NCBI GenBank assembly: GCA_029975165.1
Contig: JARKPR010000027.1
Span: 1 to 37,805, forward strand
Origin: Selenomonadales bacterium
Lineage (GTDB): Bacteria; Bacillota; Negativicutes; Sporomusales; UBA7701
Length of the DNA stretch: 37,805 nucleotides
Reading direction: 5' to 3'
Shown here: one piece after another, positions 2,940-26,615 of the stretch
Position numbering within the stretch: the first letter of the stretch is position 1
Layout of the letters: each line of letters opens with the position of its first letter
Notes under the pieces: model-generated
What the model was told of the DNA's origin: nothing
The model's input: the letters and a program-made list of their open reading frames with translations, nothing else
Database searches by the model: none
Translations under genes and position numbers: made by a program

Positions 2940-4190
2940 ATGTCTAATGACCTTGCCAACACTGGAATAGTATTGTCGCGGGTAGCGTCGCGGATAGTAT
3001 CGCAGCAGGCCGGGGAGAGACTGAGACCGGGCCATTATTTAATGATCGTGTTATTGACGGTGATCATAACGGTATTATCCTCTGTCGTCGACTTTTCCAC
3101 CCCGCCTCCGCCGTGGCGCCTTCCGGCGGCAGGCGCGTTATTCGGTGCCATCCTGGTAATGTGCGGCTTCAGAGTCGGCAAATTTTCCAAGCGGGCTTTG
3201 GCGATACTGTATTTTTGGCTAGGCTACGCCACGGCGGGCGTGGTCGCCGCGCTCATCAATCGCGACAATCTCGTCGGCGAGCTTTGGCAATTATGCGGCG
3301 TATCCTTGATAATTTTCGCCGTTATCCCCCATTATATCAAGAAAAACGGCGCTCTTATCGTAACCAAAGCCCTTGTTCTGGGGGTTGCCCCGTTCATGCT
3401 TGCTTCCCTGGCCTTGCACCCGATCCAGCCGGGTTATGCGGGCGTTTATGCCAACTCGAACGGGATGGGGCTGGTGGCGGTTACCTGGCTGGCGGGCTTG
3501 CTCGTTTTACTGCGGAAGTACCTGCTGAATGAAAACAAGGGCTTTTTCTGCTACCTTTACTCAAGCCTGTCCGGAGTAGCGGCTGCGGTTTCAATCGTCG
3601 TGATTGTCGCGTCAAATTCGCGGACCAGCCTTATTACCGCCGCCGTACTTATAATGATATTTGTTGTGTCGCTTCTGGATTTGTCCAGGAAGCGATCCTG
3701 GGCAATGGCGGTCCTGGCTGGACTGGGCCTCTTGGTTTTTATGACGCTGACGATCACCGGGGTCTACCAAACCGATGTATTAAGCGAGCAAATGAGTAAA
3801 TTCAGTTCCGAGCTGGGGGTCGTTTCGGGCCGCGAGGTAATATGGCGAAACGTTATCGACAATGTCTCCGTTTTCGGCCACGGAGGCACCGGTTTGGTCA
3901 ATCGCCTGGGCCAACCCGCCCATAACACATATTTGGAGGTGCTGGACGCAAGAGGGATACTTGGCCTGGCATTCCGGCTCCTTTTCGATATGGCGGCAGT
4001 CGCCTTGGCATACAAAATCGCTGTCCGGCGGTCAAAGGAAGATATCTGCGCGGTAGGCCCCTTGATGGTCATCATGAACTATATAGTTCTCGGGCTGGCC
4101 GAAAACGTCAACGGCACATTGGGCAGCGGCATTCATATGGCCTTCCTGCTGATGGTCGGCGTGGCGATGCACTACGAGCATTATCATTAG
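2940..4190 (+). CDS. O-antigen ligase / polymerase family membrane protein
   Basis: Multi-spanning inner-membrane protein, 416 aa, of the Wzy/WaaL (O-antigen ligase) superfamily, which polymerises or ligates glycans on the outer face of the membrane. About 10-12 hydrophobic segments are visible. The large loop near residues 280-330 carries the family signature GREVIWRNVIDN, then FGHGG and AHNTYLEVLDARGILGL; the Arg and His of this loop are the usual functional residues. It heads a three-gene block with a beta-helix protein and a glycosyltransferase, so a role in surface polysaccharide assembly is likely. Whether it is a polymerase or a ligase cannot be decided from sequence alone. Confidence 0.8.
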   Translation: MSNDLANTGIVLSRVASRIVSQQAGERLRPGHYLMIVLLTVIITVLSSVVDFSTPPPPWRLPAAGALFGAILVMCGFRVGKFSKRALAILYFWLGYATAGVVAALINRDNLVGELWQLCGVSLIIFAVIPHYIKKNGALIVTKALVLGVAPFMLASLALHPIQPGYAGVYANSNGMGLVAVTWLAGLLVLLRKYLLNENKGFFCYLYSSLSGVAAAVSIVVIVASNSRTSLITAAVLIMIFVVSLLDLSRKRSWAMAVLAGLGLLVFMTLTITGVYQTDVLSEQMSKFSSELGVVSGREVIWRNVIDNVSVFGHGGTGLVNRLGQPAHNTYLEVLDARGILGLAFRLLFDMAAVALAYKIAVRRSKEDICAVGPLMVIMNYIVLGLAENVNGTLGSGIHMAFLLMVGVAMHYEHYH

Positions 4191-4208
4191 AAAGCTGGTT
4201 GGGCTATT

Positions 4209-5720
4209 ATGCGCCGAGGCAACCGGGCCGTGGTTTCTCCCCAAAGAAGACTGATATTAATATTGAGAGTCGCCGGGATATGCCTGATAGCCGCGCTTAT
4301 TGCGGGGCATGCGGCAGGGCTCGGGCTCGGCAGGCCCGCCATATACAACGCCCTTGACCACCTTTCCGTCCGTATTCCCCAGTCGGTCGCAGCCTTTTTG
4401 GGGATGCCCGGCGCTGCATCGGTGCCGGCCGGCAAGGGGCCGGCACCGGTCGCAACGGCGAATGGCATCGGCAATTATGAGGTGCAGGAGGACCCGGCCG
4501 CACTTAATGTAAAGGCTTTCGGCGCCAAAGGCGACGGGGTCGCGGACGATACCGCCGCTATCCAAAGGACGGTGAACGCCGTTCCGGCCGCCGGGGGGAA
4601 AGTGTTCATCCCCCCGGGGGTTTACATGGTAGAGGCAATGGAGTCGGTTAAGCTGAAAAGCCGCGTCACGTTGCTGATGGCCAAAGGAGCCGTTTTGAAG
4701 GCCATACCGAACGGCGCGGAGCATTACACCATTCTGGCCATCGACAAAGTCAGCGACGTTACGGTTGTCGGCGGCGTGATCCAGGGAGACCGGAAGCGGC
4801 ATATCGGCGATAAAGGGCAATGGGGCGCCGGCGTTCAGATAGGGGGCTCGAAAAATGTCGCCGTTCTGGGCACCGCGGCCGTCGACTGCTGGGGCGACGG
4901 CTTTTACATCGGCAACGAAACGGCAAAAGGATATCTGACGGGGGAATTTTCCGCGGTACCGGAAAATATCCGCCTGATCGACGTGCAGGCCGATAACAAC
5001 AGGCGGCAGGGCATATCGATAATCGCCGGGCGCAATGTCGAAATAATCCGCCCGGTGCTGACCAACACCAGCGGTGTGGCCCCCGCCGCCGGGGTGGACA
5101 TCGAGCCTAATTCCAACCGGGATTTTCTCGAAAACATCGTGGTGGCCGATGCGGTGACGAAAGGCAATGCCGGCCCGGGAATCCTGATAAATCTCACCGA
5201 GCTGGGCGGGACAACCAGGCCGGTGAATATCAGGATAACCAACCATCGCGACGCGGGCAGCGAGCGGGGGATGTACTTAATCGACGCCAATACGGGCGAT
5301 AACGTCACGCCGGGGACGGTGCTGATCGAGAACCCGGAATGGGTGAATGCGAAGAAGAACGGCGTGACCATTGCCAATCACGATTATCGCGCTTATGATC
5401 TGCTGATCAAAAATCCCCGGATAATAAACGCCAACAGCGCCGGTTCGCGCTCCGACGCCTGGAACGGTTCGGCGATCGCCATTTTCCACGACATCGGCAA
5501 CACTCCCGCCAGGACCGGCATCATCGGCAATGTGACCATCCATAACCCGGTGATAACCAACAATGCCGCCCGGCTGGTAACTCCCGTTTTTGTCTGGGAT
5601 TATGTGCCGGGCCGCACCATCCGGAAAGTGACGATCATCGATCCGGTCATCGACGGCGTGGCGGGAAACATGGCCGCTTTCGACGAAGTAAAGCAGTATA
5701 TAAGATTTACGGCAAGGTGA
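4209..5720 (+). CDS. Membrane-anchored parallel beta-helix protein, pectate-lyase-3 type
   Basis: 503 aa. An N-terminal hydrophobic segment (about residues 15-35) is a signal or anchor, then a linker rich in Ala/Pro/Gly leads to LNVKAFGAKGDGVADDTAAI (about 98-117), the hallmark start of the pectate lyase superfamily / GH28-like right-handed beta helix. The rest shows the short repeating strands of such a helix with many Asn residues. These proteins cleave, epimerise or bind acidic polysaccharides outside the cytoplasm. Position between an O-antigen ligase and a glycosyltransferase suggests it trims or modifies the polymer made here. Start ATG at 4209 is 18 bases after the previous stop; its ribosome site is weak. 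Substrate unknown. Confidence 0.75.
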   Translation: MRRGNRAVVSPQRRLILILRVAGICLIAALIAGHAAGLGLGRPAIYNALDHLSVRIPQSVAAFLGMPGAASVPAGKGPAPVATANGIGNYEVQEDPAALNVKAFGAKGDGVADDTAAIQRTVNAVPAAGGKVFIPPGVYMVEAMESVKLKSRVTLLMAKGAVLKAIPNGAEHYTILAIDKVSDVTVVGGVIQGDRKRHIGDKGQWGAGVQIGGSKNVAVLGTAAVDCWGDGFYIGNETAKGYLTGEFSAVPENIRLIDVQADNNRRQGISIIAGRNVEIIRPVLTNTSGVAPAAGVDIEPNSNRDFLENIVVADAVTKGNAGPGILINLTELGGTTRPVNIRITNHRDAGSERGMYLIDANTGDNVTPGTVLIENPEWVNAKKNGVTIANHDYRAYDLLIKNPRIINANSAGSRSDAWNGSAIAIFHDIGNTPARTGIIGNVTIHNPVITNNAARLVTPVFVWDYVPGRTIRKVTIIDPVIDGVAGNMAAFDEVKQYIRFTAR

Positions 5721-21487: not shown

Positions 21488-21523
21488 AAAACCCTCTTCG
21501 CGTGAAGCGGCGAAGAGGGTTTT
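21488..21523. terminator. Bidirectional terminator
   Basis: AAAACCCTCTTCGC / GCGAAGAGGGTTTT, 14-bp perfect stem, eight-base loop. It ends the RpiR gene and the convergent NifB-type operon. Confidence 0.9.
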
Positions 21524-21550: not shown

Positions 21551-22402
21551 TTAGCCGGAGCGGGCGCAGCTTTGGCCGTCGCCGGCGCACAGCAGCCCTG
21601 CGGCGTCGGCGCGGCAGCGGCGGCAATGGTAGATCTGCGGGAGGTGGGCGACGGTCAGCTTGCGGAGGCGGGCCATGTCGGCGTCGGTAGGCGGCGCGAG
21701 GTTGGCGAACGGGGTGCCGCGGACGGGGATGAGGGGCATGCAGTTCATGGTGTCGGCGCCCCAGGCGGCCGCCCGGGCGGCGATGGCGGGGATGTGGCCG
21801 GCGTTGACGCCGGGCAGGACGACGGTGTTGATTTTGATCGTCAGCCCCCGCCGCTTGAGGGCAGCGATGCCTTCTTCCTGCCTGCTCAGGAGGAGCACGG
21901 CGGCGTCGCGGCCGCGGTAGGTGCGGCCGTCCAGCGTGACCGCGGCGTAGATGTGTTCGCCGATCAGGGGGTCGACGGCGTTGACGGTGACGGTGACGTG
22001 GGTGACGCCGGCGTCGGCCAGGGCGTCGGCATGGCCGGGCAGGCCCAGGCCGTTGGTGGATACGCAGATCAGGAGGTCGGGATGGTGGGCGTGCACGGCG
22101 CGCAGCGTGGCCAGCGTGCGGGGGGCATCGCAGAGGGCGTCGCCGGGGCCGGCGATGCCGACGACGGCGATGTCGGCCCGCCGCTTCAGGAGGCTGGCGA
22201 GGTCGGCGAGGGCTTCGGCAGGGGTGAGGACGCGCCCGGTGACGCCGGGGCGGCTTTCGTTGACGCAGTCGTAGAGGCGGTTGCAGAAGTTGCACTGGAT
22301 GTTGCAGCCGGGAGCCACCGGCAGATGGACCCGGCCCCAGCGGGCGCTGGCGCCGGCGTTGAAGCAGGGGTGGTTTTCGAGGGGCTTGCGGGGGTTATTC
22401 AT
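21551..22402 (-). CDS. NifB-type radical SAM protein (core only)
   Basis: 283 aa radical SAM enzyme with every core signature of NifB: HPC at 11-13, the SAM cluster motif CNIQCNFCNRLYDC (Cys33, 37, 40) continuing into NESRPGV, and the C-terminal CRRCRADAAGLL (Cys260, 263). In nitrogenase-making organisms NifB fuses two [4Fe-4S] clusters with a carbide and extra sulfide to form the NifB cofactor. The NifX-like C-terminal domain of many NifB proteins is absent, as in short archaeal forms. Its ATG overlaps the stop of the ferredoxin gene. No nifHDKEN gene lies in the window, so the product may serve another enzyme. Confidence 0.85.
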   Translation of the reverse strand: MNNPRKPLENHPCFNAGASARWGRVHLPVAPGCNIQCNFCNRLYDCVNESRPGVTGRVLTPAEALADLASLLKRRADIAVVGIAGPGDALCDAPRTLATLRAVHAHHPDLLICVSTNGLGLPGHADALADAGVTHVTVTVNAVDPLIGEHIYAAVTLDGRTYRGRDAAVLLLSRQEEGIAALKRRGLTIKINTVVLPGVNAGHIPAIAARAAAWGADTMNCMPLIPVRGTPFANLAPPTDADMARLRKLTVAHLPQIYHCRRCRADAAGLLCAGDGQSCARSG

Positions 22403-23175
22403 CGGTTTTCCGTCTTTCGTCCGAATTTAATGGCGTCCACGGGACAGGAGTGCAGACAGTCGCCGCAGTTGGTGCAGTTGGTTTCGTCGGGGCGGGCGCC
22501 CATCTCGCAGACCCGCCGGCAGGCGTCGCAGTTGGTACAGGCATCGGTCTTGAAAACGCGGAAGAAGGCCGCGCCTTTGAACAGCTCCAACAGGCCGCCG
22601 GTGGGACAGGCGAACCGGCACCACAGGTTGGCGACGAGCAGGCCGGCCGCCACCAGGCCGAGGACGACGAAGGTGCGGACCAGCCAGGCCAGGGAGGCGT
22701 GCTCGAAGGACAGGCGGATGGAGTTCCAGAATTCGCCGACGCGGATGGGGACCATGGCCCGCGGGTTTTGCAGGCCGATCCAGAGAAAGGCGGCGACGAG
22801 GAGGCCGATAGCCAGCCCGTACGGCGCCAGCCGCACAAACCGGTTGTCGACGCGCAGCTTGGCGAACGACAGCTTGCCGAGCATCTGGTTGACGAAGCCG
22901 CCGGGACAGAGCCAGCCGCAGAACGCCCGGCCGGCGAACATGACGGATAAGGGCAGGGCGAGCCAGAAAGTCCAGAAGTAGGCGGTGATCCGGCCCCAGC
23001 AGGTGATGACCGGGCAGACCCGGCAGCCCACGAAGGGGACAAGGAAGGGACAGCGGAAGATGCCGTAGAAGGCCCATTGCCCGAGGACGGCCAGCATGAC
23101 TAATTGAATTATTCTGCGGATGGGCGGCAGGCTGAGGCTGCCTGTTTTGGCGGTGGCTGTTTGCTGCTCAGACAT
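22399..23175 (-). CDS. NapH/YccM-like membrane polyferredoxin
   Basis: 258 aa with four to five hydrophobic helices and two CxxxCP-type motifs at membrane ends (FCGWLCPGGFVNQ and CRFACPTGGLLELF), as in NapH, CcoG and NosR C-terminal parts. The tail has two full [4Fe-4S] ferredoxin motifs, CTNCDACRRVCEMG and CTNCGDCLHSCPVDAI. It should move electrons between the membrane pool and cytoplasmic partners. Overlap with both neighbours (eight bases with the binding-protein gene, four with the NifB-type gene) implies tight co-translation. It could supply reductant to the radical SAM enzyme or to the binding-protein system; both are inference. Confidence 0.85.
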   Translation of the reverse strand: MSEQQTATAKTGSLSLPPIRRIIQLVMLAVLGQWAFYGIFRCPFLVPFVGCRVCPVITCWGRITAYFWTFWLALPLSVMFAGRAFCGWLCPGGFVNQMLGKLSFAKLRVDNRFVRLAPYGLAIGLLVAAFLWIGLQNPRAMVPIRVGEFWNSIRLSFEHASLAWLVRTFVVLGLVAAGLLVANLWCRFACPTGGLLELFKGAAFFRVFKTDACTNCDACRRVCEMGARPDETNCTNCGDCLHSCPVDAIKFGRKTENR

Positions 23176-24022
23176 CTTTTACCCCCAGTTTCTCGATCAG
23201 GGTGCGGCCCTTTTCGGAGTTGGCCGGGATAAAGCCGTGCTTTTCAAAGATGGCCTGGGATTCGTCGGCACAGATGAAGTTCACGTAGTCGTCGGCCAGG
23301 GCGCGGTCCTTGGCGTATTTCATGACGCCGATGGTGAAGGTGAGCGGGCCGGGCGGGAAGAGGGCCGCGGGGATGGGGATGGCTTCGACCTTCCCGGCGG
23401 TGTCGGCCCGGCGGGTGAGGCGCCGTTCGACGATGGAGGCGTCGCCTTCGCCGTTTATGATGCGCGGCATCATTTTGACGACGCAGGTTTCCTTTTCGGG
23501 TTTGTTGGCGAGAACGGCTTTATCGAGTTTCGCTTTGGTGAGGATGCCCATGATGGCGCCGCCGCCGGGCGGAGAGGCGCCGAGGGGAAGGATGACCCGC
23601 ACGCCCGGCTTGGCGAGGTCCTCGAGGGATTTGATGCCGGCGGGATTGCCGGGCGGGGTGACGAGGACGTATTCCGTGAAGCAGAGAGGCCGGAAGTAGA
23701 GCATGAGGTTGGCGGCCCGCAGGTCTTTGGCCAGTTGCAGCACCCGGCCGCCGAAGACTTCGGTGACGGCGCCGCCGAGGAGCGATTTGCCGAGCGCGGC
23801 CGCGAACGCCCCGGTATAGTCGATGCTGACGCCGTTGCGCTGCTCGTATAGGCTGTTGGCTTCGGTGAAGGCTTCGGCCAGGCCGCCGCAGGACCAGACC
23901 TGCAGCGCGTCGACCTGGAAGCGGCCGCCCAGCAGGACGGGCGAGAGGACGGCGGCCGCGGTCGAAGCCACGGCGGATTTGAGAAACGTCCGTCTGCTTA
24001 CGCCGCTTGTTTTGTTTTCCAT
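23168..24022 (-). CDS. Tat-exported ModA-like substrate-binding protein
   Basis: 284 aa periplasmic-binding-protein fold. The N-terminus GVSRRTFLKSAVAST is a twin-arginine signal (Arg10, Arg11), indicating export in folded form, maybe with cofactor. The rest resembles the ModA/type 2 oxyanion-binding group (SLYEQRNGVSIDYTGAFAAAL, then GGRVLQLAKDLR). No ABC permease or ATPase is encoded in the same operon; the neighbouring importer has its own binding protein. ATG 24022 follows AAAGGAG. It is the first gene of the operon with the polyferredoxin and the NifB-type protein. Ligand unknown; molybdate or tungstate is a possibility from family resemblance only. Confidence 0.75.
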   Translation of the reverse strand: MENKTSGVSRRTFLKSAVASTAAAVLSPVLLGGRFQVDALQVWSCGGLAEAFTEANSLYEQRNGVSIDYTGAFAAALGKSLLGGAVTEVFGGRVLQLAKDLRAANLMLYFRPLCFTEYVLVTPPGNPAGIKSLEDLAKPGVRVILPLGASPPGGGAIMGILTKAKLDKAVLANKPEKETCVVKMMPRIINGEGDASIVERRLTRRADTAGKVEAIPIPAALFPPGPLTFTIGVMKYAKDRALADDYVNFICADESQAIFEKHGFIPANSEKGRTLIEKLGVKDV

Positions 24023-24073: not shown

Positions 24074-24096
24074 ATTATAGCAAAATTCTATAGAAT
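24074..24096 (-). promoter_or_regulatory. Promoter region with palindrome before the binding-protein/NifB-type operon
   Basis: On the minus strand TATAAT (24079-24074) is a perfect -10 box. The palindrome ATTCTATAGAAT (24085-24096) lies directly upstream, covering the spacer and -35 area, where no good -35 is seen. That pattern suggests an activator or repressor site. Confidence 0.55.
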
Positions 24097-24120
24097 ATCA
24101 TAATAAAATCTATAACAGTC

Positions 24121-24154
24121 AAAAATAAAAACCCGCGTATTTGAACGCGGGTTT
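24121..24154 (-). terminator. Terminator of the importer operon
   Basis: AAACCCGCG / CGCGGGTTT with an eight-base loop, followed on the minus strand by TTTTATTTTT. It separates the importer operon from the NifB-type operon. Confidence 0.85.
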
Positions 24155-24171: not shown

Positions 24172-25125
24172 TTATTTCGTCATGTCGACGATGAGCGGCT
24201 TGAGGTCGATCTTTTTGGTGAGCAGGCCGTTCTGGACGAGGAAGTCCTGGGTTTTCTCCAGGTCGGCGAGGTCGGCGGCGGTGACGGCCGGCGAGAAGTC
24301 GTACCAGCCGTACATTTTCTTGACGTCATCGATTGAAATGCCGGTTTCCTCGGCCGCCAGGCGATAGACTTCGTCGGGGTGCTCCCGCATGTAGCGCAGG
24401 GCTTCGTTGTGGACGCTAAGGTAGCGCGTGACGAGGTCGGGGTGGGCTTTGACGAAGGCGCCGGCGGCGGCGATGACAATGGTGGCGTCGAGCAGCCCTT
24501 CGCCGGTGGCGATAATGCGGGCGCCGTTTTCGAGGGCTTTGGGCACGGCGGGGCCGGCGACGAGGGCGGCGTCGACGCTGCCGGCGAACAGGGCGGCCGT
24601 AGCCTGGGGGATGCCCATGTTGACGAAGTCGGTGTCGGCGGCGGTCAGGCTGTTTTTCGCCAAAGCGGCGAGCAGCAGCTGATGGAGGATGGTGCCTTTC
24701 GGCCCGGCGATTTTTTTGCCTCTGAGGTCGGCAACGGTTTTGATTTGCGGGTCTTTGGCGATGACGACGAAGGCCTTGGGCGCCCGGCTGTAGATGCCGA
24801 CGATCTTGAGGTCGACGCCGTTGGCGGCGGCGAGGATGGCCGAGGTGCCGCCGAGGGCGTTGCAGAAGTCGAGCGAGCCGGCGGCGAGGGCCTCGGTCAT
24901 TTTGGGGCCTTCGAGGATTTCGGGGAAGACGACCTTGATGTTGTCCCTGGCGAATTCCTTCTCGAACAGGCCGAGCTTCTTTTCGACGATGGAGGGGACG
25001 TTGAGGGGCAGCTTGACGTAGGAGATCCTGACAGTGTCGACGGGTTTCGGCTTGCCGGGCGCGCCGCAGCCGGCCAAAGCGACGGCGAGGGCGGCGACGA
25101 GCAGGCAGGCGAGCAGTTTCTTCAT
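24172..25125 (-). CDS. SsuA/NMT1-type lipoprotein substrate-binding protein
   Basis: 317 aa binding protein of a nitrate/sulfonate/taurine-type ABC importer. MKKLLACLLVAALAVALAGC is a lipoprotein signal with lipobox Cys at position 20. The mature protein shows the family pattern RISYVKLPLNVPSIVEKKLGLFEKE, then FCNALGGTSAILAAANG, and VADLRGKKIAGPKGTI. The ATG at 25125 follows GAGAGG and lies one base after the ATPase stop. The ligand class (sulfonate, thiamine precursor, or other) cannot be fixed by sequence alone. Confidence 0.85.
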   Translation of the reverse strand: MKKLLACLLVAALAVALAGCGAPGKPKPVDTVRISYVKLPLNVPSIVEKKLGLFEKEFARDNIKVVFPEILEGPKMTEALAAGSLDFCNALGGTSAILAAANGVDLKIVGIYSRAPKAFVVIAKDPQIKTVADLRGKKIAGPKGTILHQLLLAALAKNSLTAADTDFVNMGIPQATAALFAGSVDAALVAGPAVPKALENGARIIATGEGLLDATIVIAAAGAFVKAHPDLVTRYLSVHNEALRYMREHPDEVYRLAAEETGISIDDVKKMYGWYDFSPAVTAADLADLEKTQDFLVQNGLLTKKIDLKPLIVDMTK

Positions 25126-25126
25126 G

Positions 25127-25864
25127 TTAAACACCTCTCTGGGCGGGCGGGCTTGTCAGCGAAGCCAGCAGGCCGGCCCGCAGTTTGTAGAACGGTTCGC
25201 CGGCGGCGTCGCGCGGGTAGGGGAAGGGCACGGCGACCTCCGCCGTTATCCTGCCGTCGGCCATGACCAGGACGCGCTGGCCGAGGATGAGGGCTTCGTC
25301 GATGTCGTGGGTGACGAACAGGATGGTTTTGTTGTGCTTGAGGAAGATGGCGACAAGCTCTTCCTGGAGGTTGCGCCGGGTGAAGGCGTCGAGGGCGCCG
25401 AGCGGCTCGTCCATGAGGATGATGTCGGCGTTGTAGCACAGCGCCCGGCCGAGGGCGGCGCGCTGGGCCATGCCGCCCGACAGCTGGGAGGGGTAGGCGG
25501 CCTTGAAGCCGCCGAGGCCGAGCATGTCGAGGTAGCGGCCGACGGTTCGCTTGATCTCGTCCGGCGGCTGGTCCCGCATGACGAGGGCCAGGTTCTGCTC
25601 GACGGTCAGCCAGGGCATGAGCCGTGGCTCCTGGAAGACCATGGCGATCCGGGCGCCGGGCGGGTCGAAGGCGACTTCGCCGGCCGACTGCTTTTCCAGC
25701 CCGCCGATGATCCGCAGCAGGGTGGTTTTGCCGCAGCCGCTGCGGCCTACGATGGTGACGAGGCTGCCTGCGGCCACGGCGAGGTCGACGCCGGCCAGGG
25801 CCGCGACCTGCCGACCCGGCAGGCGGTATTCCTTATAGAGCCCCTTTAGAGCTAAAGCTGTCAT
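25127..25864 (-). CDS. SsuB/TauB-type ABC transporter ATPase
   Basis: 245 aa nucleotide-binding subunit. Walker A GRSGCGKTT, Q-loop VFQEPRLMPWLT, signature LSGGMAQRAALGRAL, Walker B IILMDEPLGALD and the switch His in FVTHDIDEAL are complete. The QEPRLMPW segment is typical for the nitrate/sulfonate/taurine subfamily. Its 5' end overlaps the permease gene by 32 bases and it ends one base before the binding-protein start. Confidence 0.9.
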   Translation of the reverse strand: MTALALKGLYKEYRLPGRQVAALAGVDLAVAAGSLVTIVGRSGCGKTTLLRIIGGLEKQSAGEVAFDPPGARIAMVFQEPRLMPWLTVEQNLALVMRDQPPDEIKRTVGRYLDMLGLGGFKAAYPSQLSGGMAQRAALGRALCYNADIILMDEPLGALDAFTRRNLQEELVAIFLKHNKTILFVTHDIDEALILGQRVLVMADGRITAEVAVPFPYPRDAAGEPFYKLRAGLLASLTSPPAQRGV

Positions 25865-26615
25865 CGGTTTCGTTCTCCCCTGTCCATGGCAGGATGCGCG
25901 CGGCGAGCTTGAGGAAGGCGTAGTCGATTATGTAGCCGAACAGGCCGATGGCGAGGATGCCGACGATGACGACGTCGGGGCGGGAGAGCTGTTCGGCTTC
26001 GATGATCATGTAGCCGATGCCGGCCGAGGCGGCGATGAGCTCGGCGCCGATAAGGGCCCGCCAGCTGTAGCCGAGACCGAGCCGCATGCCGAGGACGACG
26101 GACGGGAGGGAGGCCGGGAGGATGATGCGCAGGAAGCGCTGCCGGGGGGTGAAGCCGAAGACCTGGCCGACTTCGATGAGCCTGGCGTCGCATTGCGCGA
26201 TGCCGGCCAGGGTGTTGAGGAAGAGGGGGAAGAAGGCGGCGAGGATGATGATGGCCAGCTTGGAGGCTTCGCCGATGCCCAGCCAGAGGATGAGGAGGGG
26301 GATGCAGGCGATGGGCGGGATGTGGCGGAGGAAGTGGAGGGTGGCGTCGAAGTAGGGGATGAGCCGCCGGTTCATGCCGAGGAGCACGGCCAGCGGAAAG
26401 GCGGCGAGGAAGGTGAGGCCGAAGCCGGCGAAGACGCGCCCCAGGCTGGTGGCCATGTGGCCGGCGAGGATGCCTTTTTGCCACAGCGCGGCGGCCGTCG
26501 CGGCGACGCCGGCAGGCGACGGGACGAGGTAGCTGTTGGCGAGGCCAAAGGCGGCGGCCGCCTGCCACCAGGCGAGGACAACGGCCGGGATGAGGAGGGC
26601 TTTGAGGATTTTCAT
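25833..26615 (-). CDS. SsuC/TauC-type ABC transporter permease
   Basis: 260 aa integral membrane subunit with about six helices. The BPD cytoplasmic loop for ATPase contact appears as EVGQVFGFTPRQRFLRIILPASLPSVVLG, the EAA-like motif of this subfamily. First gene of the importer operon, preceded by a promoter, structured leader and terminator, so its expression is probably decided by attenuation of transcription. Confidence 0.9.
   Translation of the reverse strand: MKILKALLIPAVVLAWWQAAAAFGLANSYLVPSPAGVAATAAALWQKGILAGHMATSLGRVFAGFGLTFLAAFPLAVLLGMNRRLIPYFDATLHFLRHIPPIACIPLLILWLGIGEASKLAIIILAAFFPLFLNTLAGIAQCDARLIEVGQVFGFTPRQRFLRIILPASLPSVVLGMRLGLGYSWRALIGAELIAASAGIGYMIIEAEQLSRPDVVIVGILAIGLFGYIIDYAFLKLAARILPWTGENETDDSFSSKGAL

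Follow-up and report, generated by a model that had tools for sequence, protein, structure and literature searches.

To our knowledge, NifB is thought to serve nitrogen-fixing enzymes only. The locus described here raises the question of what a NifB-type protein does in an operon with a Tat-signal protein and a membrane polyferredoxin. The operon lies in a window of 37,805 nucleotides (the whole stretch of DNA analyzed), where the three overlapping genes reported at 21551-24022 by the initial annotation were all recovered on the minus strand (Table 1). Their stop and start codons overlap as ATGTCTGA and ATGA, and an SsuABC-like transporter (24172-26615) is encoded just upstream. Terminator-like hairpins of the kind found between the transporter and the operon are about equally frequent in shuffled sequence; the hairpin 3' of NifB has a loop that exceeds the limit of the scan, hence its absence from the scan list. 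An Rfam search of the window gave no match at the gathering threshold. Overall, the evidence below suggests a further, so far unstudied role for the rare iron-sulfur product of NifB, on the outer side of the cell membrane.

Table 1. Genes and candidate regulatory signals of the operon
Feature	Coordinates	Strand	Length or basis
TatSBP: Tat-signal protein, ModA (type II binding protein) fold	23168..24022	-	284 aa
NapH-like membrane polyferredoxin	22399..23175	-	258 aa
NifB radical-SAM core, without NifX domain	21551..22402	-	283 aa
Promoter-like site 5' of TatSBP, ATGATA-16-TATAAT	24074..24101	-	consensus match only
Terminator-like hairpin between SsuABC-like genes and TatSBP operon	24129..24154	-	hairpin scan
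Hairpin with T-rich tail 3' of NifB, terminator-like	21488..21523	-	read directly from sequence

The NifB of the window matches TIGR01290 with 318 bits over residues 8-273 (model positions 9-278); the NCBI equivalog cut-off of this 441-position model, which reaches past the core, is 343.65. The NifB of a Campylobacter concisus isolate (L093) scores above that cut-off, at 351.4. Against the solved archaeal NifB 6y1x, the window protein scores 251.8 bits. As had been proposed for this short protein, all core motifs are conserved: the radical-SAM CX3CX2C and residues H11, C13, C113, C260, and C263, among which we take the K1/K2 cluster ligands to lie. The core residues are invariant in 27/27 NifBs of the main triad group and in 47/47 ordinary NifBs, and no residue separates the two sets at the tested threshold.

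A phylogenetic tree, suggested earlier as a check, places the window protein outside ordinary nitrogenase NifB. Of 31 triad NifBs, 27 form one group apart from ordinary NifBs, with moderate support only (94/80); it is sister to nif NifBs, mostly from Desulfobacterota genomes. Two lineages in fact adjoin TatSBP-NapH, one downstream (27 rows) and one upstream (4 rows, 100/100). The upstream lineage is confined to one TatSBP subclade (100/100), and two residues of the window NifB, C46 and H259, are missing from it. The ordinary NifBs in the tree are only those fetched for this comparison; partial NifBs, one stop-containing row (L164), and ten duplicates were left out.

Does the source genome encode a nitrogenase? 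The initial annotation had noted no nifHDKEN genes, and this holds for the contig of the window (C51), where nothing besides the operon NifB matches TIGR01290, PF00148, or PF00142. It does not extend to the genome, where broken or interrupted pieces of nif-like NifB, NifH, and Oxidored_nitro genes occur on one 5.5-kb contig (C7). PF00148 and nif-like PF00142 are represented only by these short fragments, the remaining PF00142 matches being proteins of the wider family. A genome-wide search thus found no complete nitrogenase locus, in a genome that is 96.3% complete and in which a missed locus is conceivable. Four congeners carry full-length PF00148 genes. The decayed locus and the congeners would fit a relic, with nifB left behind by a lost nitrogenase, or an artefact of assembly or binning. 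We consider this very improbable, and for the most part already refuted: the NifB remnant on C7 and the intact NifB are different genes, NifB has dN/dS of 0.04-0.13 in four Campylobacter pairs, and the TatSBP-NapH-NifB order is common to Bacillota, Desulfobacterota, Campylobacterota, and others, isolates included. Conservation of this order had been named as a check, and it is borne out across phyla.

A motif-based scan of genome contigs with the peptide patterns LQVWSCGG and LYEQ[RK]NG[IV] recovered 52 loci with TatSBP relatives. NapH directly follows TatSBP at 48 of them, the remaining loci being cut off, and NifB adjoins the pair at 31; presence of NifB and NapH at the loci was counted with tblastn. 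At the genome level, a NifB match accompanies TatSBP in 49/50 cases, one of them weak (G469), the exception being G444; many of the genomes are incomplete MAGs. In a 398-genome sample of the phylum, a TatSBP search at E <= 1e-30 matched the source genome alone. Apparent NapH-NifB fusions at two loci (L102, L103) were rejected, as the long ORFs arise by extension in a wrong frame 5' of the start of NifB. At another locus (L111), NifB and TatSBP share one 594-aa frame; this is a single MAG and is not evidence of fusion.

The nitrogenase family is unevenly represented among these genomes. PF00148 is over the cut-off in 36/50, and in these the triad may possibly support nitrogenase; a match is absent in 12/50, including two Campylobacter concisus isolates. 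At loci with TatSBP-NapH and no adjacent NifB, PF00148 is over the cut-off in 11/11 cases; at judgeable loci in genomes without over-cut-off PF00148, NifB is adjacent in 12/12. The association of adjacency with PF00148 (42/50 judgeable) gives p = 0.018, not corrected for phylogeny, with two genomes that have sub-cut-off PF00148 only (G460, G474) grouped with the nitrogenase-free ones and a NifB cut to about 76 aa (L079) scored as adjacent.

In Campylobacter, a strong NifB (over 300 bits) occurs in 17/18 genomes with TatSBP versus 0/30 others (48 genomes; p = 4e-12, not corrected for phylogeny). In the remaining genome (G499), TatSBP is interrupted by a stop, and the 10 kb read contains neither NapH nor NifB. 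In this genus, gains and losses mostly affect the whole operon at once; its decay is not strictly joint, because two genomes (G497, G512) keep an intact NifB beside a split TatSBP. The PF00148 search inside Campylobacter covers two genomes.

These distributions bear on a reading in which TatSBP-NapH assists NifB or helps nitrogenase to mature, as a source of electrons, metal, or the ninth chalcogen, rather than being the client of NifB. The frequency of PF00148 would fit such a role, as would the sulfur and selenium supply genes among the neighbors and the ordinary NifB within 10 kb of TatSBP in Solidesulfovibrio (L107, L116). We regard it as quite unlikely, given that 12/50 genomes retain the unit without a PF00148 match and that NifB accompanies TatSBP in Campylobacter; NifB therefore needs a purpose other than nitrogenase. 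Together with the tree, these two observations give good support to a non-nitrogenase use of the NifB product, which the initial annotation had raised.

TatSBP is the candidate for that use. It scores 156 bits against SBP_bac_11, 21.7 bits against the TAT_signal model (slightly below the cut-off of 22.7), and 28.6 bits against the ModA profile TIGR01256, below its cut-off of 62.5. Both Arg residues of the Tat signal are invariant in a 50-row alignment. An AlphaFold model (pLDDT 84) matched ModA in a fold search, with Z 26.1 to 4kd5. Three Cys residues, C45, C114, and C180, are invariant in 52/52 sequences. For C45 the sampling matters: LQVWSCGG is present at each of the 51 loci where TatSBP is readable, and relatives free of Cys45 would escape the scan, so that residues 40-47 are invariant among scanned loci because the scan required them. 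Cys114 and Cys180 lie outside both patterns, and all three Cys are present in 18 sequences gathered without the LQVWSCGG scan (8 from the same order and 10 from Campylobacter). None of the three positions is Cys in two aligned ModA chains or in five ModA-like paralogues from the same order. In the model, C45 immediately precedes helix 46-63 and C180 precedes helix 181-189, and the invariant Cys appear to sit at places matching the ligand cleft of ModA. The Ser (AAAS motif) and Tyr that we take to be the molybdate ligands of ModA align with G47 and E199. With these ligand positions replaced, TatSBP looks like a cofactor protein rather than part of a transporter. A binding protein without a permease had been called odd; the unit indeed has no permease of its own, and a transporter role is less likely than that of a cofactor protein.

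Type II binding proteins have oxyanions or metals as ligands. TatSBP could accordingly be an ordinary oxyanion or metal binder, with the NifB-like enzyme running a different radical-SAM reaction and making no carbide cluster. The ModA fold and selenium gene neighbors are compatible with this; a molybdate binder would not be expected to have the Tat signal and the invariant Cys, no permease is included, and the NifB core is as invariant as, and at the tested threshold inseparable by any residue from, that of ordinary NifBs. We judge it unlikely.

The third protein has Fer4_5 and Fer4 matches and is predicted to cross the membrane with four helices; it carries the CX3CP motif twice and a pair of 4Fe-4S motifs at the C-terminus. 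It also has an additional CX8CX2CX4C loop between helices 1 and 2. It is NapH-like only, its 56.7 bits against TIGR02163 being far below the cut-off of 213.05. In NapH, the C-terminal 4Fe-4S domain is on the cytoplasmic side.

The best explanation, to which we assign a probability of roughly 0.47 (lowered from 0.50 because the motif used to gather the family contains Cys45), is a NifB dedicated to the non-nitrogenase protein TatSBP. In the cytoplasm, NifB would make a cluster of the [8Fe-9S-C] type (NifB-co/L-cluster), which would enter the inter-domain cleft of TatSBP, with Cys45, Cys114, and Cys180 as likely ligands, and the Tat pathway would export the protein already folded. TatSBP may receive electrons through the membrane from the NapH-like protein. 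The resulting complex would catalyze a redox reaction in the periplasm, or serve as a sensor or carrier based on the cluster, and its substrate would most plausibly be a selenium or sulfur oxyanion, or a related chalcogen compound. We infer that NifB makes the same cluster here, that TatSBP is the client, and the direction of electron flow and class of substrate.

The selenium or sulfur role is the weakest part of this explanation, and we hold it to be doubtful. Selenium genes (YedE/SirA/SelD) occur near TatSBP at 11/52 loci. For YedE, 0.26 of 52 would be expected by chance if each 4 Mb held a single copy and the loci were independent; Sporomusaceae share a neighborhood, which leaves about five independent lineages. 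None of the three genes is beside the triad in the window. Similarly doubtful is the fuller proposal of a new enzyme class, a Tat-exported periplasmic enzyme with a binding-protein fold and a nitrogenase-type carbide cluster in bacteria without nitrogenase, a human-associated Campylobacter among them. Such an enzyme would be wired by the NapH-like protein to the respiratory chain and would probably reduce selenium or sulfur oxyanions for selenium or sulfur assimilation.

Another neighbor, the double-cubane protein DCCP, could be a partner or client. It is over the cut-off in 8/15 genomes searched, occurs at 6/52 fetched loci, and adjoins TatSBP at L045 and in one Campylobacter genome (G512, L202). 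Among the ORFs of a C. concisus DCCP neighborhood (L209), no selenium gene was recognized. An obligate partnership was rejected, as two of the 15 genomes (G463, G470) have no match and five others have sub-cut-off matches only. The same absences weigh against a reading in which NifB makes its usual cluster for another, mostly unlinked client such as DCCP, with TatSBP-NapH elsewhere in the pathway. Furthermore, the E. coli control carries DCCP but does not belong to the controls that match NifB; NifB is therefore not required for DCCP. We find this reading distinctly unlikely.

If a dedicated NifB for TatSBP is confirmed, bacteria also have a non-nitrogenase use of the L-cluster, and the client has another fold and another location (the periplasm). 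The nitrogenase precursor cluster could then be studied and engineered on a small, soluble protein that carries it, other uses of the carbide cluster would become directly testable with three genes, and nifB would call for caution as a marker of nitrogen fixation. Among the literature matches listed, which leave most subscription journals outside coverage, none concerns this gene triad.

Precedents exist for parts of the proposal. The MCR activation complex of methanogens (McrC/Mmp7) was reported in 2025 to contain [8Fe-9S-C] L-clusters outside the Nif family, and NifB is reported to be essential in methanogens, including those without nitrogenase genes (PMC12176620). Unlike the TatSBP system, that complex is archaeal and serves ATP-driven MCR activation, and the accessible text of the report mentions no ModA-fold or NapH partner (PMC12176620). 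McrC/Mmp7 chains are not among the 50 matches listed in the TatSBP fold search, which excludes nothing. In the methylthio-alkane reductase MarBHDK, MarB is described, in the accessible part of the source, as a dedicated NifB-like maturase for a non-nitrogenase activity; its client is a nitrogenase-like protein (PMC12552129), whereas 12/50 triad genomes have no PF00148 match. TatSBP shares the fold of the molybdate-binding protein ModA but differs in its Tat signal, three invariant Cys, and Gly and Glu at the ligand Ser and Tyr positions. The NapH-like protein resembles the NapH/MauN/NosR polyferredoxins in its CX3CP and two 4Fe-4S motifs and weak TIGR02163 match; however, the triad includes no NapG or NapA and the protein has an extra four-Cys loop. 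Finally, the window NifB shares with nitrogenase NifB (TIGR01290) the radical-SAM core with CX3CX2C, HPC, C113, and CX2C-RADA, but it lacks the NifX domain, is encoded in its own operon with TatSBP and NapH, and belongs to a triad whose NifB is retained in genomes without PF00148 matches.

Three overlapping genes had been claimed in the initial annotation, encoding a ModA-like binding protein with a Tat signal (TatSBP), a NapH-like membrane polyferredoxin and a short NifB-type protein. They are real, all on the minus strand, with overlaps ATGTCTGA and ATGA. Given the flanking hairpins, the second of them read in the sequence 3' of NifB, and the promoter-like site, the triad is probably a transcription unit of its own, apart from the sulfonate/nitrate-type SsuABC-like ABC transporter directly upstream. 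Against the NifB model TIGR01290 this protein, a radical-SAM NifB core without NifX domain, scores 318 bits; the match spans the core alone, and the model with its cut-off of 343.65 has 441 positions. A NifB truncated so as to lack its NifX-like domain has been described as active in vivo (PMC5715403).

Coordinates of the triad, its surroundings and features at related loci
Feature	Location	Coordinates	Strand	Remark
TatSBP	window	23168-24022	-	ORF
NapH-like	window	22399-23175	-	ORF
NifB	window	21551-22402	-	ORF
Triad	window	21551-24022	-
Terminator-like hairpin	window	24154-24129		ahead of TatSBP; consensus match only; flanks SsuABC-like genes
Promoter-like site	window	24101-24074		ahead of TatSBP; consensus match only
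SsuABC-like transporter	window	24172-26615	-
Hairpin	window	26677-26657		flanks SsuABC-like genes
Decayed nif-like locus	L041 (G000:C7)	3800-5340
NifB + TatSBP frame	L111	5823-7607
Formate dehydrogenase	L121	11641-13701		in-frame TGA
Formate dehydrogenase	L105	3347-4588		in-frame TGA

The initial annotation had named conservation of the gene order as a check, and the order TatSBP, NapH, NifB is the same at all seven other loci of the organism's order (28 genomes); NifB there is full and of window type (67-78%) in six genomes and truncated in the seventh. TatSBP of at least 75% identity occurs in 9 of the 28; the ninth genome (G016), matched by identical coordinates for the nitrogenase family PF00148 to locus L082, has TatSBP-NapH without adjacent NifB. 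A motif scan of 84,980 species' genomes returned 52 TatSBP loci, only relatives carrying the exact motifs LQVWSCGG and LYEQ[RK]NG[IV] being visible to it. Record titles include Sporomusa, Anaerospora, Megasphaera, Geobacteraceae, Syntrophobacteraceae, Acidobacteriota, Phycisphaerae, Campylobacter concisus, Desulfovibrio and other Desulfobacterota or 'Deltaproteobacteria', and several are MAGs. NapH lies directly 3' of TatSBP in 48 of 52; three of the remaining loci stop within 195 bases of TatSBP (L098, L110, L126), and the match at the fourth, L130, is to a fragment of 78 bases. NifB is present in 33 loci and adjacent in 31 (30 listed plus L111, with NifB in the frame of TatSBP), three of the adjacent copies being partial (L079, L086, L091); the other two, at L107 and L116, are of the ordinary nif type and lie several kb from TatSBP. 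The single 594-aa frame of L111, from one Phycisphaerae MAG, reflects either a fusion or a missing stop. In Sporomusa silvacetica (L079/L048) the triad NifB is shortened to about 76 aa, TatSBP and NapH are intact, and several more NifB matches lie in the genome.

Apart from the window's NifB, the whole-genome nif search suggested at the outset found only broken pieces in the organism's own genome. PF00148 is limited to two short pieces, both on a 5.5-kb contig (C7) where NifB, NifH and NifD-like genes are truncated or interrupted. This decayed locus (L041) holds the first 60 aa of a NifB, an interrupted NifH and a NifD-like gene, with a small ORF between the pieces and an SsuABC-like operon ahead. 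Full-length PF00148 genes and an ordinary NifB (49-51% identity) occur in each of the four congeners that were examined, none of which has a window-type NifB. Because C7 holds only fragments while congeners keep full-length genes, nitrogenase has probably been lost in this species; the genome, 96.3% complete, is too little to carry the argument alone.

Searches for NifB and PF00148 covered 50 of the 52 TatSBP genomes (all except those of L110 and L130). NifB matched in 49, several partially; the sole match in G469 has E = 7.9e-5, and G444, with none, has its TatSBP at a contig end. PF00148, a family that takes in NifD/K/E/N and their relatives, exceeded the cut-off in 36, had no match in 12 and was sub-cut-off only (E about 3-4e-4) in two more. 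On judgeable contigs, all 11 cases of TatSBP-NapH without adjacent NifB came from genomes with PF00148 over the cut-off, and NifB was adjacent in all 12 cases from genomes without it (Fisher p = 0.018 for adjacency versus PF00148; 42 of 50 judgeable, kinship uncorrected). G026 is the only one of the order's 28 genomes to combine a full NifB with no PF00148 match; NifB dN/dS between the window and G026 is 0.27.

TatSBP also occurs in 18 of 48 Campylobacter genomes, and the 17 with strong NifB (>300 bits) all fall within these 18; remaining NifB-model matches in the 48 are below 30 bits. The PF00148 search covered two of the 48. The 18th TatSBP genome, G499, has an internal stop in TatSBP, with no NapH or NifB within the 10 kb read. 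Decay of TatSBP and NifB is not strictly joint, since TatSBP is split with NifB intact in G497 and G512, TatSBP is intact with a shifted NifB start in G482, and both are frayed in G477 (L200, L201, L202, L206 and L207 are the loci of the broken triads in these five genomes). Four pairs of Campylobacter genomes give NifB dN/dS values of 0.04-0.13, with dS saturated in two of the pairs.

In a tree of 80 NifBs, in which ordinary NifBs are those fetched in this analysis alone, 27 triad NifBs including that of the window form one group. The initial annotation had asked whether this NifB forms a separate clade; the group has moderate support (94/80) and adjoins 17 ordinary NifBs, mostly from Desulfobacterota genomes (joint node 100/98). 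A second triad lineage (L111, L119, L122, L125; 100/100) lies far from the main group on long branches; its NifB genes are upstream of TatSBP, and the proteins lack C46 and H259 but have the other core Cys/His. In the TatSBP tree these four loci share one subclade (100/100) with loci lacking adjacent NifB. The trees, given long branches and a limited ordinary NifB set, are read most simply if NifB became associated with TatSBP-NapH on two or more occasions. Such repeated joining would be hard to explain unless the product of NifB is what TatSBP-NapH needs. Our main reading is that NifB would make an [8Fe-9S-C]-type cluster (L-cluster) for a non-nitrogenase client, TatSBP.

The AlphaFold model of TatSBP is a confident ModA fold (pLDDT 84, pTM 0.81; versus 4kd5, Z 26.1, rmsd 1.9 over 224 residues), and by profile score the protein is not ModA (28.6 versus a cut-off of 62.5). 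Cys45, Cys114 and Cys180 occur in 52/52 sequences, including those as little as 45% identical to the window protein, and both Tat arginines, Ser44, Ser80, Ser150, Glu199 and Arg201 are invariant in a 50-row alignment; invariance of residues 40-47, Ser44 and Cys45 included, follows by construction from the motif scan, of which Cys114, Cys180 and Glu199 are free. All three Cys are also present in 18 TatSBPs from searches that did not use the motif, 8 in the order and 10 in Campylobacter, the members of each set being closely related. No Cys occupies these positions in two aligned ModA chains or in five paralogues resembling ModA, which come from three loci within the order; Cys180 falls in a gap in all five. 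Cys45 and Cys180 immediately precede modelled helices 46-63 and 181-189, a position at which the ligand sits in binding proteins of this type. The odd number of Cys does not point to disulfides alone. Few protein ligands suffice for the L-cluster in the cases described: Cys plus Gln in NifEN (PMC13031127), and His/His or Cys/Cys in McrC (PMC12176620).

Of the 16 Cys that are invariant across the 43-row alignment A4 of the NapH-like protein, eight are ferredoxin Cys; the others make up two CX3CP motifs and, at 42-59, CX8CX2CX4C. Its model is of moderate confidence (pLDDT 70.8; below 50 in the 36-58 loop), and the long helices (16-41, 60-81, 117-134, 162-180) place the 42-59 loop opposite the C-terminal ferredoxin domain. 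Judging from NapH topology, this loop presumably faces the periplasm.

Neighbours were surveyed up to 10 kb on each side of the 52 loci. Selenium genes occur near 11: the putative selenium transporter YedE near seven (about 0.26 expected by chance under a simple model), over the NCBIfam cut-off in L083 (tested as L047), L088 and L090; SelD near four, three confirmed; and formate dehydrogenase with in-frame TGA in L105 and L121, a few kb from TatSBP-NapH, with the selenocysteine-like HCARL*HAPTVAG. Other neighbours are SirA-like proteins, a Se/S carrier, cysteine desulfurase, rhodanese and, near six loci and also at L045 and L202, double-cubane cluster protein (DCCP). A comparative study connects YedE and YedF, in a shared context, with an activase and a family of Sec lyases (PMC5322559). 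None of the selenium/sulfur or DCCP neighbours occurs in the window's own 37.8 kb, where the one match is a class-V aminotransferase 24% like desulfurase, so a selenium/sulfur role is kept as a hypothesis only. Two further arrangements were seen: MauE/DoxX-like and rhodanese genes adjoin TatSBP-NapH in L113, L117, L120 and L100 (Desulfobacterota; Pfam run on L113 alone), and in two Geobacteraceae MAGs (L086, L090) a gene that stops about 0.2-0.3 kb 5' of TatSBP encodes an FdhA-like molybdopterin oxidoreductase of 893-908 aa.

No paper on the triad was among the literature matches listed. In methanogens, L-clusters are described in the MCR activation complex, and these archaea reportedly cannot do without NifB, even if they have no nitrogenase genes (PMC12176620); MarB is described as serving a nitrogenase-like reductase (PMC12552129). 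We see the triad as a variant of something already known, a NifB that would work for a client other than nitrogenase. To our knowledge, the MCR activation complex and the MarB system have no part in common with it except NifB or a NifB-like protein; if TatSBP were shown to hold the cluster, the triad would count as categorically new.
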